A DNA stretch of 64,000 nt from Ignavibacteriales bacterium (lineage in GTDB: Bacteria > Bacteroidota > Ignavibacteria > Ignavibacteriales > Melioribacteraceae). The first letter of the stretch is position 1. Every line of letters starts with the position of its first letter. The notes under the pieces were generated by a model. The model ran no database searches. It was not told the origin of the DNA and saw nothing but the letters and a program-made list of their open reading frames with translations. Shown here piece after piece: positions 16,735 to 21,256 of this stretch. Location of the stretch: positions 310,001-374,000 of the forward strand of contig JAIOYW010000001.1 of assembly GCA_021740915.1 (NCBI GenBank), written 5' to 3'. A program made the translations under genes and the position numbers.

Positions 16735-17433
16735 ATGAATAATTTTGGGCAGTTTTATGTTATTGGGACTCCGATCGGTAATCTTAAGGATATTACAATC
16801 CGGGCATTGGACATCCTCAATTCAGTTGATTTCATCCTATGTGAGGACACACGCCAGACTGGAATTTTACTTAAACATTATCAAATCAGTAAGGAGACAC
16901 ACTCGCTTAATGCCCGAAATGAAAAATATAAATTAAAATATTTTATTTCCAGATTGATGATGGGAGAAAATGCAGCGCTTGTCAGTGATGCAGGAACACC
17001 GCTCATTTCCGATCCAGGTGTTTTTCTGGTTGCAGAGGCTCATAAAAATGGAATTCAGGTCAACAGCATCCCGGGACCATCATCAGTAACCGCGGCTTTA
17101 TCAATTTCCGGTTTCCCATCGGATTCTTTCAGTTTTTTTGGATTTTTACCGCAGAAAAAAGGGAGACAGAAAATTCTTGCAGAAATTTCAGACTATGATC
17201 ATACAATCGTGCTTTTCGAATCATCACACAGAATCGAAAAATTGCTGAAAGAATTATCAGGATTGATTCCTGAAAGATATGTCATGGTTGCAAGAGAGAT
17301 CACTAAGAAGTTTGAGGAATCCCTGCGTGGAAACCCGGCACAGATACTATCACAACTTACTGCTCAAAAGACCAAAGGCGAATTCGTTGTTTTGATAACA
17401 GGGAAAAAATATAAACAATCTATCGATCAATAA
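16735..17433 (+). CDS. rsmI: 16S rRNA (cytidine(1402)-2'-O)-methyltransferase
   Basis: The protein carries all SAM-dependent RsmI/tetrapyrrole-methylase motifs in order: GTPIGNLKDIT at the N terminus, CEDTR, SDAGTPLISDPG, PGPSSVTAALSISGFP and FFGFLP. It 2'-O-methylates C1402 in the decoding centre of 16S rRNA. The frame extends upstream to 16696, but that adds a hydrophobic stretch foreign to the family; the ATG at 16735 has GGAA about 9 bases ahead and places GTPIGNL near the N terminus, as expected. Its last 7 bases overlap the 3' end of the convergent apt gene. Confidence 0.92.
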   Translation: MNNFGQFYVIGTPIGNLKDITIRALDILNSVDFILCEDTRQTGILLKHYQISKETHSLNARNEKYKLKYFISRLMMGENAALVSDAGTPLISDPGVFLVAEAHKNGIQVNSIPGPSSVTAALSISGFPSDSFSFFGFLPQKKGRQKILAEISDYDHTIVLFESSHRIEKLLKELSGLIPERYVMVAREITKKFEESLRGNPAQILSQLTAQKTKGEFVVLITGKKYKQSIDQ

Positions 17434-17939
17434 TGAATTAAAGATTGAATTTCATAACCTTTCAATAGTTCTCTGCCTTTAAGAAAATCTAATTCGATCA
17501 GAAAGGAAATGCCGGTAACAATTCCACCGAGTCTTTCGATAAGTTTGATGGCAGCCTGCATAGTACCTCCTGTTGCCAGTAAATCATCGTGTAAAATTAC
17601 CTTTTCCCCGGATCTTATGGCATCCTCATGAATTTCAATCGTATCAGTTCCATATTCAAGTGAATATGATTCACTGATCTTCTTTGATGGTAGCTTTCCC
17701 GGTTTTCTAATCGGGACAAATCCGGCGCCAATTTTTGAGGCAATTGCGCCGCCAAAAATAAACCCTCGGGATTCGATTGCAGCAATTTTTTCAATTCCTT
17801 TGGCATTAGCGTATTGTACAAATTCATTTAGAGCAAAATTGAATGCTTCGGGTTTCTGAAGAAGAGTCGTGATATCCTTAAATACAATACCTTTTTTAGG
17901 AAAATCAGGCACATCGCGTATTACTGTTAAAAGGTCCAA
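17427..17939 (-). CDS. apt: adenine phosphoribosyltransferase
   Basis: The 170-residue product matches Apt in length and motifs: DVPDFPKKGIVFKDIT at the N terminus, ESRGFIFGGAIA, and the PRPP loop VILHDDLLATGGT. It converts adenine and PRPP to AMP in purine salvage in the cytoplasm. The start is a TTG, supported by a perfect AAGGAGG seven bases upstream that lies inside the end of the polX-like gene, so the two are translationally close. It is the last gene of a long minus-strand run. Its 3' end overlaps rsmI by 7 bases. Confidence 0.94.
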   Translation of the reverse strand: MDLLTVIRDVPDFPKKGIVFKDITTLLQKPEAFNFALNEFVQYANAKGIEKIAAIESRGFIFGGAIASKIGAGFVPIRKPGKLPSKKISESYSLEYGTDTIEIHEDAIRSGEKVILHDDLLATGGTMQAAIKLIERLGGIVTGISFLIELDFLKGRELLKGYEIQSLIHY

Positions 17940-17943
17940 AATC

Positions 17944-19593
17944 TTACCTCCTTAAAATTATTTCCTTAAATTCCTCAAAAGATAAACAATTAATAACTTC
18001 TGCTGATTGCAGTCCGGCTTTTTTGGCGATATCAATACCCCACCGGATATCTCTAATTCCCTTAATACTGTGTGCATCTGGATTTATTGCATGTCTGACC
18101 CCAATTTCCCGTGAATAGAATATATTTTTCCAGGCGAGATCTAATCTATGAGGATTTGAATTAATTTCAATAGCAACATCATTGGCTTTGCAGGCTTCAA
18201 GTATTTTTTTTACGTTCAGAGCGTACCCCTGTCTCGAGAGAAGGAGACGGCCGGTAGGATGACCTATTAATTTAGTATAGGGATTCTCAATTGCCTTAAT
18301 AATCCGTGCAGTCATCTCATCCTCTGTAAGAGAAAATATTGAATGCACCGAAGCAACGATAAAATCGAATTCTCGTAAAATAGATTCATCATAATCCAGC
18401 GAACCGTCTTTTAATATATCGCTCTCTATTCCATGCAAAATATAGGGTCCATTAATACGGTTGAGTTTTTTTATCTCCTCTTTTTGAATCAACAGTCTGT
18501 CTTCAGTCAATCCATTGGCATAAAATGCTGACTTCGAATGGTCGCAAACAACGATGTATTCAAAACCCAGTTTCGCTGCCTCTGTCCTCATTTCCAACAG
18601 ACTATTTTCACCGTCTGAATAATGCGTATGAAAATGGATCAGCCCTTTAAACTTTTCAAATTTGAGATCACTTTCCATTCTCAAATTGTCCGGTAAGGAA
18701 AAGTATTCCGTTTCTCTCATCTCAGGAATTATATATGGTATTTTTACGGACTTAAAAAATTCTTCTTCTGTAGAACAATCTGCCACTTTCGTACTGAAAG
18801 CACTAAGAAATTCTGTTGATCCGGTAAGACCAAGAAGTTTTTGTTTGAAAGAATTTTCAGAATCGACAAAATGAATTGTAACCTTAATACTTGAAGTTTT
18901 AATTGTAACGAAATCCTGAAAATCAGAAATCGTCTTTTCTTTTTCATCAGGAAAAACTTCACATATAATATTTTCTTTTTGAGTCGTATAAATTAGAATT
19001 TCGAGATGGCTGATCGTTTCTTTTTTTCGTCGCAGCTCTCCCACCTCAGATATGCTGCTGTACGAATCAATATTAAGAAGGATTGATTTGTATTTCTCAA
19101 ATAAAGATGTTGCCCTGTGAAGATGAATGCTGTTTCTGTTTTTTGTTAATTCTTCAATCTCATGAAGAATTTTTTGTTCAATTTTTTCACCAAAACCCTT
19201 TAAATCTTTTACTTTTTGATTTATACAGGCTTCTTCAAGTGAGGAAATATCTTCGATACCAAGATGATCGCAAAGTGCACGGACTTTTTTCACGCCTAAT
19301 CCCCTGATCTCCATGATCTCCCTTATTCCGGCAGGCACTTCATTTCTAAGTAGCTCGAGTTCACTTACTAATCCTGATGAGTTATACTCTTCGATAAATG
19401 ACCTTATACCTTTTCCTATTCCCTTTACGGAAAACAAGTTGCCGGTTATTAATGCATCCTCAAAGTCTCCTTCAAATCTTCTTATGGATAAGGCGCCATT
19501 CCTGAATGCATTAATTTTAAATATATTCTCGCCCTTAAATTCCAGAAGATCGGCAAATTCTTCGAGCAGATTAATTATTTCCTTTTTAGTCAA
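17944..19593 (-). CDS. PolX-like protein: HhH domain, degenerate family X polymerase domain, intact PHP domain
   Basis: The 549 residues follow the bacterial PolX layout. Residues 1-80 are the 8-kDa domain with helix-hairpin-helix VKGIGKGI, with further HhH motifs IRGLGVKKVRAL (96-107) and LKGFGEKIEQ (131-140). The palm region is recognisable from GELRRKKETI (185-194), but the family's GDxD catalytic pair is replaced by SHLE (195-198), and the third Asp region reads KVTIHF (237-242). The C-terminal PHP phosphoesterase keeps its metal ligands: HFHTHYSDG (320-328), CDHS, HGIESD, SVHS (415-418), GHPTGR and PDAHS (505-509). I infer loss of polymerase activity with retained 3'-5' exonuclease or phosphatase activity. 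The start is a TTG, 5 bases after the PAP2-like gene. Confidence 0.85.
   Translation of the reverse strand: MTKKEIINLLEEFADLLEFKGENIFKINAFRNGALSIRRFEGDFEDALITGNLFSVKGIGKGIRSFIEEYNSSGLVSELELLRNEVPAGIREIMEIRGLGVKKVRALCDHLGIEDISSLEEACINQKVKDLKGFGEKIEQKILHEIEELTKNRNSIHLHRATSLFEKYKSILLNIDSYSSISEVGELRRKKETISHLEILIYTTQKENIICEVFPDEKEKTISDFQDFVTIKTSSIKVTIHFVDSENSFKQKLLGLTGSTEFLSAFSTKVADCSTEEEFFKSVKIPYIIPEMRETEYFSLPDNLRMESDLKFEKFKGLIHFHTHYSDGENSLLEMRTEAAKLGFEYIVVCDHSKSAFYANGLTEDRLLIQKEEIKKLNRINGPYILHGIESDILKDGSLDYDESILREFDFIVASVHSIFSLTEDEMTARIIKAIENPYTKLIGHPTGRLLLSRQGYALNVKKILEACKANDVAIEINSNPHRLDLAWKNIFYSREIGVRHAINPDAHSIKGIRDIRWGIDIAKKAGLQSAEVINCLSFEEFKEIILRR
17947..17953 (-). promoter_or_regulatory. 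strong Shine-Dalgarno for apt that fixes its TTG start
   Basis: The minus strand reads AAGGAGG ending seven bases before TTG at 17939, within the last codons of the upstream gene. No in-frame ATG lies nearby, so TTG is very likely the true start. Confidence 0.8.
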
Positions 19594-19598
19594 CTTTT

Positions 19599-20189
19599 TT
19601 ACTCGAGTATTTTAAGTATAATGAATGAAACAATATTTCCAAGTGCACCGCCTGCCAATATCTGCGAAAATGTATGTTTTTTTAATTCAAGACGGGACCA
19701 ACCCACAATTGTAAAAATAAGAATTCCAGGAATAATAAATGAAGAATTCAGATAAGCCAGAACAGTGATCGGAGAACTTAGGCCAAGAGCATGTGCACTT
19801 ATTTTCCAGAATCTGTTAATTAAAAGGATAAATAGACTATTGAAAAAATATATTACCCAAATACTAAGCACAAGACCGCTGAACCCAAGAAGATAGGTCA
19901 CTATACCGCCAAAAATAGAAATCAGAATTCCTGCGGTATAAGGCATTGTTCTTTCTTCTTTGATCGTTGCATCCCGATCAGATACAATCCCCTTTCTTCT
20001 GAGCAATATAAAGTACATCAGAGGTAAAAGGAAACCGAGAAAAAAACCAGATAAAATTAAGAGTAATCTATCATTATGATCCAGCTGAATCAAAAACGAA
20101 AGAAAAAGAAATAATAAAAAAGTATTGACTGGAGGAACAAATAAATCGGATAGCCCGCGCGCTAATAGATATTTTTTACTGCTTTTCAT
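19599..20189 (-). CDS. PAP2-family-like membrane protein
   Basis: The roughly 196-residue protein has about five hydrophobic helices and PAP2-like motifs: KEERTMPY (motif 1), SAHALG (motif 2) and SRLELKKHTFSQILAG (motif 3, with Arg and His). PAP2 proteins dephosphorylate lipid phosphates such as phosphatidic acid or undecaprenyl pyrophosphate at the membrane. Motifs 1 and 2 deviate from the strict consensus (TMPY for RP, SAH for SGH), so activity is uncertain. I chose the ATG that overlaps the dusB stop as ATGA; an in-frame TTG two codons earlier is possible. Confidence 0.7.
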   Translation of the reverse strand: MKSSKKYLLARGLSDLFVPPVNTFLLFLFLSFLIQLDHNDRLLLILSGFFLGFLLPLMYFILLRRKGIVSDRDATIKEERTMPYTAGILISIFGGIVTYLLGFSGLVLSIWVIYFFNSLFILLINRFWKISAHALGLSSPITVLAYLNSSFIIPGILIFTIVGWSRLELKKHTFSQILAGGALGNIVSFIILKILE

Positions 20190-21256
20190 TCGCAAATTCT
20201 GTTATTATCTGAATCACATACAATATTTTTGATATTGTCACGATTCGAGTCATTCGATATTTCATTTCCATGTTTTTTGAGTTCCTCCCGAAAACGGTTT
20301 AAACAATCTTCAACTCCTGAATACTCAATATATTGCATTATTTCCTGCCGATATTTTGAAGCATTGTAAAGCCCTCTAAGATATCCTGAATAGTACTTTC
20401 TGAAAGGAATTACTGCGCTTTTCTCAGTCTCACTAAGTTCAATTGAGTAACGCAAATGTCTAAGTATCGTATCGAATCTCTCATCCAGTGATTCTACTGT
20501 GATTCCCTTTCCATGGCTTATTTTTTCTTTTAATACCTTAAAAATTCTCGGATTTCCTATTGCGCCTCTTGCTATCATAACACCATCAGCGCCTGTTTCT
20601 CTAAAAGCTTTTATTCCATCTTCAGCTTCAAATATTCCTCCATTTAGGACTATTGGGATTCCCACTTTTTCTTTAACGCGCGGGATCCATGACCAATCCG
20701 GATCGCCATTATGTGCGTCACTCCTTGTCCTGCAATGGATTGTTAGCGCTTTCGCACCTGCATCTTCTATCCTTTGCGCTACCTCAATAATTTTGATGTC
20801 ATCTTTATCCCACCCTAATCTGGTTTTTACAGTAACTGGAATATTTACGGTTTTCACAATACTTTCTACCATTTTCTGCATATAGGGCAGATCTTTTAAC
20901 AATCCTGCGCCTGCGCCTCTACAGACAACATTTTTCACCCAGCATCCGGCGTTTATATCAATTATTTCTGGTTCCTGCTTCTCGGCAATTCTGGCCGCAT
21001 CGATCATTCGGTCAAGAAAAGCTCCGTAAATCTGGATTCCGACAGGTCTTTCTTCATCGGTAATAATAAGTTTCTTTGCGGTCTTCTTATTATTGCGAGT
21101 CAATCCATCCGCATTAACGAACTCTGTATAAACAACATCAGCGCCATATTCTTTACATATCCGCCGAAACGCAATATTTGTGATATCCTCCATAGGCGCT
21201 AAAAGCAAAGCATTTTCAATATCAATCCTTCCGACTTTGAAACGTCCGTCCATCAT
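20186..21256 (-). CDS. dusB: tRNA-dihydrouridine synthase
   Basis: The 356-residue TIM-barrel FMN enzyme starts APMEDITNIAFRRICKEYGAD, as Dus proteins do, and has NGGIFEAEDG and GVMIARGAIGNP near the phosphate-binding end. It reduces uridines in tRNA loops to dihydrouridine with NADPH. The catalytic Cys is in INAGCWVKNVV, where most DusB proteins have GCP; Trp at this position may be a lineage variant. After the core there is a tail of about 28 residues rich in Asn and Asp (HGNEISNDSNRDN onward). The start overlaps the MFS gene stop by four bases (ATGA), indicating coupled translation. Confidence 0.92.
   Translation of the reverse strand: MMDGRFKVGRIDIENALLLAPMEDITNIAFRRICKEYGADVVYTEFVNADGLTRNNKKTAKKLIITDEERPVGIQIYGAFLDRMIDAARIAEKQEPEIIDINAGCWVKNVVCRGAGAGLLKDLPYMQKMVESIVKTVNIPVTVKTRLGWDKDDIKIIEVAQRIEDAGAKALTIHCRTRSDAHNGDPDWSWIPRVKEKVGIPIVLNGGIFEAEDGIKAFRETGADGVMIARGAIGNPRIFKVLKEKISHGKGITVESLDERFDTILRHLRYSIELSETEKSAVIPFRKYYSGYLRGLYNASKYRQEIMQYIEYSGVEDCLNRFREELKKHGNEISNDSNRDNIKNIVCDSDNNRICE

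Follow-up and report, generated by a model that had tools for sequence, protein, structure and literature searches.

The minus-strand gene at positions 17944-19593 of the window (the whole stretch of 64,000 nucleotides analysed here, from an Ignavibacteriales bacterium) very probably encodes a noncanonical PolX protein that adds no nucleotides and whose C-terminal PHP domain works as a nuclease in DNA repair. A dead polymerase site combined with a preserved PHP nuclease had been proposed from the DNA alone, and this original prediction is supported by alignment, by the relatives, by their pattern of divergence and by a structural model. Its coordinates are correct; the strand, which it did not state, is minus, and the plus strand across 17944-19593 has abundant stops in the frame read. 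The features of the gene are as follows.

17944-19593, minus strand: gene of the probable noncanonical PolX (8 kDa, thumb, palm, fingers and PHP domains; 549 residues, TTG start).
18985-19020, minus strand: decayed palm motif ETISHLEILIYT, codons of residues 192-203 including H196 and E198, which align with the first and second catalytic Asp residues (coordinates computed from the residue numbers).
18868-18885, minus strand: KVTIHF, codons of residues 237-242; T239 aligns with the third catalytic Asp.
17947-18651, minus strand: PHP nuclease domain, from residue 315 to the C-terminus, with nine metal ligands and F420, R449, R454, N478, R483 and K525 kept.

The HHH_8, HHH_5 and PHP models score above their Pfam cut-offs in this protein (hereafter the query), the first two agreeing with the proposal that the HhH motifs are preserved. 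The polymerase thumb model falls below its cut-off and the palm model is absent from the Pfam listing; the NCBIfam PolX model scores 425.4, just under its cut-off of 426. A sequence search of solved structures places D. radiodurans PolX nearest (PDB: 2w9m, E = 3.8e-86), followed by T. thermophilus PolX. The genome holds one polX copy. Among 72,556 plasmid records 43 match the protein, and the best 10 of the 43 all show 35% identity or less, with no near relative among them.

The polymerase site was compared in two alignments, one of 111 rows (the query, two solved PolXs and 108 loci, with Thermus numbering as the reference) and one of 191 rows; the domain borders in all comparisons were set by us. 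D198, D200 and D243 of Thermus PolX correspond to H196, E198 and T239 of the query in the 111-row alignment, and the 191-row alignment gives the same assignment. The motif was predicted to read ETISHLEIL at residues 192-200, with His and Glu at the places of both Asp residues, and the region of the third Asp to read KVTIHF; alignment with Thermus PolX bears out both, T239 lying opposite D243. Intact Asp residues at the aligned catalytic positions were looked for in the alignment and not found, and the query has HET where a canonical PolX polymerase has three acidic palm residues. Replacement of the second Asp by Glu is a minor substitution; the loss of the first and third acids breaks the site. 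The dNTP site is also altered: S188, Y258 (the steric gate), K263 and S266 of Thermus PolX become E186, G255, T260 and L263 (44 of 47 canonical rows have Asn at the S266 position). Both the fingers T-G-S (including G258-S259) and the palm R-R are retained. The aligned fingers region is reduced to about half its length, 23 residues in the query where Thermus has 41 and 23 canonical rows have 45-68; the palm region is unshortened (99 residues versus 100 in Thermus and 100-102 in most canonical rows).

An AlphaFold2 model, built from an alignment of the query with 45 sequences of named loci, has a mean pLDDT of 92.7 and a pTM of 0.87 and predicts that the PolX fold is retained over the whole length. 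The decayed triad positions lie in two predicted strands, 196-202 and 237-243. The seven best Foldseek matches to the model are all Thermus and Deinococcus PolX. VIA-align superimposes it on Thermus PolX (PDB: 3au6) with Z = 42.5 and r.m.s.d. = 4.9 (536 residues) and on D. radiodurans PolX (2w9m) with Z = 41.2 and r.m.s.d. = 15.4 (516 residues); since the latter whole-length superposition is poor, the domain arrangement appears to differ between the 2w9m crystal and the model. With the PHP domain alone, the best VIA-align match is E. coli YcdX (Z = 28.5). The T. thermophilus enzyme (3au2, 3au6) shares its fold with the modelled query over the whole length, but its DDD triad and complete dNTP site are both absent from the query. 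D. radiodurans PolX shares domain order, an altered triad and an intact PHP domain with the query; its triad is AEE rather than HET.

The query retains all nine PHP metal ligands (H320, H322, H352, E390, H417, H445, E476, D506 and H508, giving HHHEHHEDH), in line with the original prediction. They are likewise kept, save for one unread residue, in all 144 altered rows, which include at least three apparent second copies (L110-L112, of L016, L020 and L034), and in all 47 canonical rows save for the Gln of Thermus PolX, which occupies the place of the first ligand, His in the query. In B. subtilis PolX, mutation of F440, R469, R474, N498, R503 or K545 is reported to cripple the nuclease activities and not gap filling (PMC6616362). 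By a constant offset of 20, drawn from spacing and motif, these residues correspond to F420, R449, R454, N478, R483 and K525 of the query, all kept. Among the 144 altered rows, the Arg and Asn residues are invariant and the Lys is retained in 137, while the Phe position is occupied by Phe in 63 rows and by Leu in 81.

Proteins of this kind have been described. Prostova et al. (2022; PMC9226535) report altered triads in 809 PolXs (27.5%), the majority falling in a single cluster drawn chiefly from Bacteroidetes and Deinococcus-Thermus. Their noncanonical class, assigned by the triad, carries triad and dNTP-site substitutions, with deletions in palm and fingers in many members but not as a requirement. 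In their assays the PolXs of D. radiodurans and D. gobiensis had no polymerase activity and a strong Mn2+-dependent exonuclease, which was abolished in the D. radiodurans enzyme by a PHP mutation; a 2026 survey likewise finds stronger conservation at the PHP site than at the polymerase site (PMC12926913). The query shares with this class the altered triad and dNTP site, the truncated fingers and HHHEHHEDH. It differs from many members in its untruncated palm, and its core is less degraded than theirs, since T-G-S and R-R are kept and the palm is unshortened. Its setting also differs: dus and apt neighbours, a genome in which neither Ku nor ATP-dependent ligase was found, and an order that the main text of PMC9226535 does not name. 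The word Ignavibacteria is absent from the main text of both papers, Chlorobi likewise from that of PMC9226535, and literature joining PolX with Ignavibacteria was not found among the matches listed. That the polymerase is dead and the nuclease intact has thus been published for the group as a whole, with assays on two Deinococcus members (PMC9226535); the present case extends the known range of polymerase-dead PolX proteins by one order and leaves the 2022 picture unchanged.

By E-value, PolX is present in 33 of the 58 genomes of the order Ignavibacteriales (own included), in three of them in pieces only (G014, G027 and G042). Weak hits attributable to other PHP proteins were not counted as PolX, in 6 of the 39 matching order genomes and, in a wider sample, in G158 (E = 2.6e-12) and G237 (E = 6.7e-23). 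The closest relative found shows 52% identity. All 30 full-length order rows compared (the query and 29 relatives) have altered triads, of 24 different kinds, and L029, L030 and L034, outside this set, are altered too. A sequencing fault is an unlikely cause, because the triads are altered in the query and in 29 of 29 full-length order relatives, in frames without inner stops.

These rows bear on the idea that the altered site might still make DNA weakly, with Glu198 and other acids supporting a poor polymerase beside the nuclease. Glu stands at the second triad position in 22 of the 30 order rows, and weak polymerase activity was once reported for the AEE enzyme of D. radiodurans, as told in PMC9226535, whose authors could not repeat it. 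But in the 30 rows, with their 24 triads, the first position takes 10 different residues and the third 13, both varying freely, the steric gate, the Lys and the Asn/Ser of the dNTP site are gone, the fingers are short, and polymerase activity was found in neither AEE nor ARE enzymes in the 2022 assays (PMC9226535). We regard residual polymerase activity as very improbable.

The divergence of the domains bears on a second idea, that selection has abandoned the polymerase core, now a decaying remnant, and that the PHP domain alone matters. Mean identity within the order is 47% in the 8 kDa domain, 44% in the thumb, 27% in the palm, 35% in the fingers and 62% in the PHP domain, compared with 48, 48, 49, 58 and 59% in 23 canonical rows. 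The ratio of palm to PHP distance, a median over non-independent pairs, is 2.81 in the 30 order rows versus 1.36 in the 23 canonical rows; relative to the PHP domain the palm diverges faster, and it is therefore the palm that is relaxed and not the PHP domain. The low palm identity is what a remnant would show, but the core stays in frame and at about full length across the order (palm 95-116 residues), folds confidently in the AlphaFold2 model and retains fixed residues. Ten positions within residues 151-292 are identical in at least 90% of the 30 order rows; G185, R188, R189, E192, T257, G258 and F262 are conserved to this degree. R189 and G258 correspond to R183 and G274 of Pol beta, which contact each other across palm and fingers (PMC9226535). 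A core wholly free of selection thus has very little probability.

The preferred reading remains a polymerase-dead PolX with a working nuclease. By analogy with the assayed relatives, this PolX descendant would no longer add nucleotides, and its PHP domain would serve in DNA repair as an exonuclease (3'-5', Mn2+-dependent) that also cleans 3' ends, possibly also as an AP endonuclease. Binding of nicked, gapped or broken DNA is probably retained by the HhH domains of the 8-kDa and thumb regions. For palm and fingers we infer, as we do for the pathway, that they keep their fold and serve as a linker or scaffold; the proposal that the polymerase core is kept as a DNA-binding scaffold is plausible in view of the kept fold and of some kept palm-fingers contact residues.

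The neighbours of polX within the window are on the same strand.

17427-17939, minus strand: apt-like phosphoribosyltransferase, the next gene downstream.
19599-20195, minus strand: 198-residue protein just upstream, without a Pfam match.
20186-21256, minus strand: tRNA-dihydrouridine synthase (Dus), an upstream member of the conserved block.

The upstream gene ends 5 bases before polX and the downstream gene starts 4 bases after it; from its look alone, we would guess the 198-residue protein to be 'PAP2-like'. The block of dus, small protein, polX and apt (17427-21256 in the window) is common across the order. With our own locus excluded, apt follows polX on the same strand, no more than 820 bases downstream, in 31 of 32 order loci, the exception (L029) ending at a contig edge. 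Where upstream sequence is available, dus is present in 29 of 30 order loci (L029 lacks it) and the 198-residue protein is matched in 25 of 30. Of the 25 order genomes without PolX, the 20 that are at least 90% complete were searched for the pair; dus and apt are still adjacent, 13 to 1752 bases apart, in 17 of these 20 PolX-less genomes. In the three others the two genes are on different contigs (G007 and G013) or apt has no good match (G001). Since dus and apt are adjacent in relatives without PolX, polX behaves as an optional gene at a fixed place. Its presence requires 13 changes on a dus+apt tree of 46 genomes; we read the patchiness as repeated loss, a count of 13 changes being equally open to gain. 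The conserved dus-polX-apt block, from which polX is often missing in relatives, and the failure to find Ku are modest additions to what is known.

Neither Ku (PF02735) nor an ATP-dependent ligase (PF01068) was found in the query's own genome, and Ku exceeds the cut-off in 0 of the 58 order genomes (own included), with one weak stretch (G038, E = 1.8e-4). Ku/LigD end joining is therefore unlikely as the pathway of PolX here, and the end-joining role favoured in PMC9226535 does not fit this case. In that study NHEJ genes occur in 46.5% of genomes with an altered PolX, so their lack here is unsurprising. A polymerase-dead PolX where Ku was not found argues that the nuclease role need not depend on end joining.

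Other nucleases were compared post hoc, in several comparisons of PolX with exonuclease III (ExoIII) and endonuclease IV, both of which are patchy across the order. SbcD (TIGR00619) is over its cut-off in 2 of the 58 order genomes, with matches, mostly weak, in 48, and is uninformative for the comparison. ExoIII (TIGR00633) occurs in 10 of 33 PolX-bearing versus 17 of 25 PolX-less order genomes (Fisher p = 0.0075, kinship ignored); within the three families p is 0.33, 1 and 0.013, and a kinship-controlled comparison on the 46-genome dus+apt tree (6 independent pairs, on well-supported branches) gives a median p of 0.625. Endonuclease IV (TIGR00587) runs the other way, 24 of 33 versus 11 of 25 (p = 0.033). 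Among genomes at least 90% complete, neither enzyme is present in 4 of 30 with PolX, one of which (G026) has a short endonuclease IV fragment of 45 residues, and in 0 of 20 without; the PolX-less G005 and G029, less than 90% complete, also lack both. The query's own genome has both PolX and ExoIII. In a phylum sample of 296, with canonical and altered PolX pooled, ExoIII accompanies PolX in 81 of 126 genomes and is present in 125 of the 170 that lack PolX (p = 0.097); in the same class outside the order, among the rows listed, the figures are 6 of 21 versus 23 of 24 (p = 3e-6), but these rows cluster by family, and the listing may omit PolX-less genomes that lack ExoIII. Literature on a complementary distribution of PolX and exonuclease III in Bacteroidetes was searched for and not found. 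We treat the tendency of PolX and ExoIII to exclude each other in the order as a lead, not a result. That the polymerase-dead PolX of the order is a general 3'-end and AP-site nuclease outside Ku end joining, overlapping exonuclease III, is a tentative and rather doubtful suggestion.

A quick tree, computed from 101 of the 191 rows with palm and fingers excluded, groups the query with altered Bacteroidota PolXs, as noncanonical PolX is grouped in PMC9226535. The query falls in an 18-row clade of the order (support 100, all altered), which joins, with support 85, a clade of 40 further altered rows consisting mostly of named Bacteroidota; all 58 of the 58 joined rows are altered. Support for the deeper nodes, including the one linking to D. 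radiodurans, is weak. Canonical versus altered state requires 5 changes on this tree, 2 of them forced by well-supported branches, and within the class canonical PolXs occur in other families. A second Ignavibacteria PolX with the triad letters HET (L135, 5992-7668) lies on a distant branch and probably arrived at them independently. Full-length fingers (41 residues in the aligned region) are seen in the altered PolXs L115, L124, L132, L142, L145, L150 and L181, which perhaps represent an earlier stage of decay.
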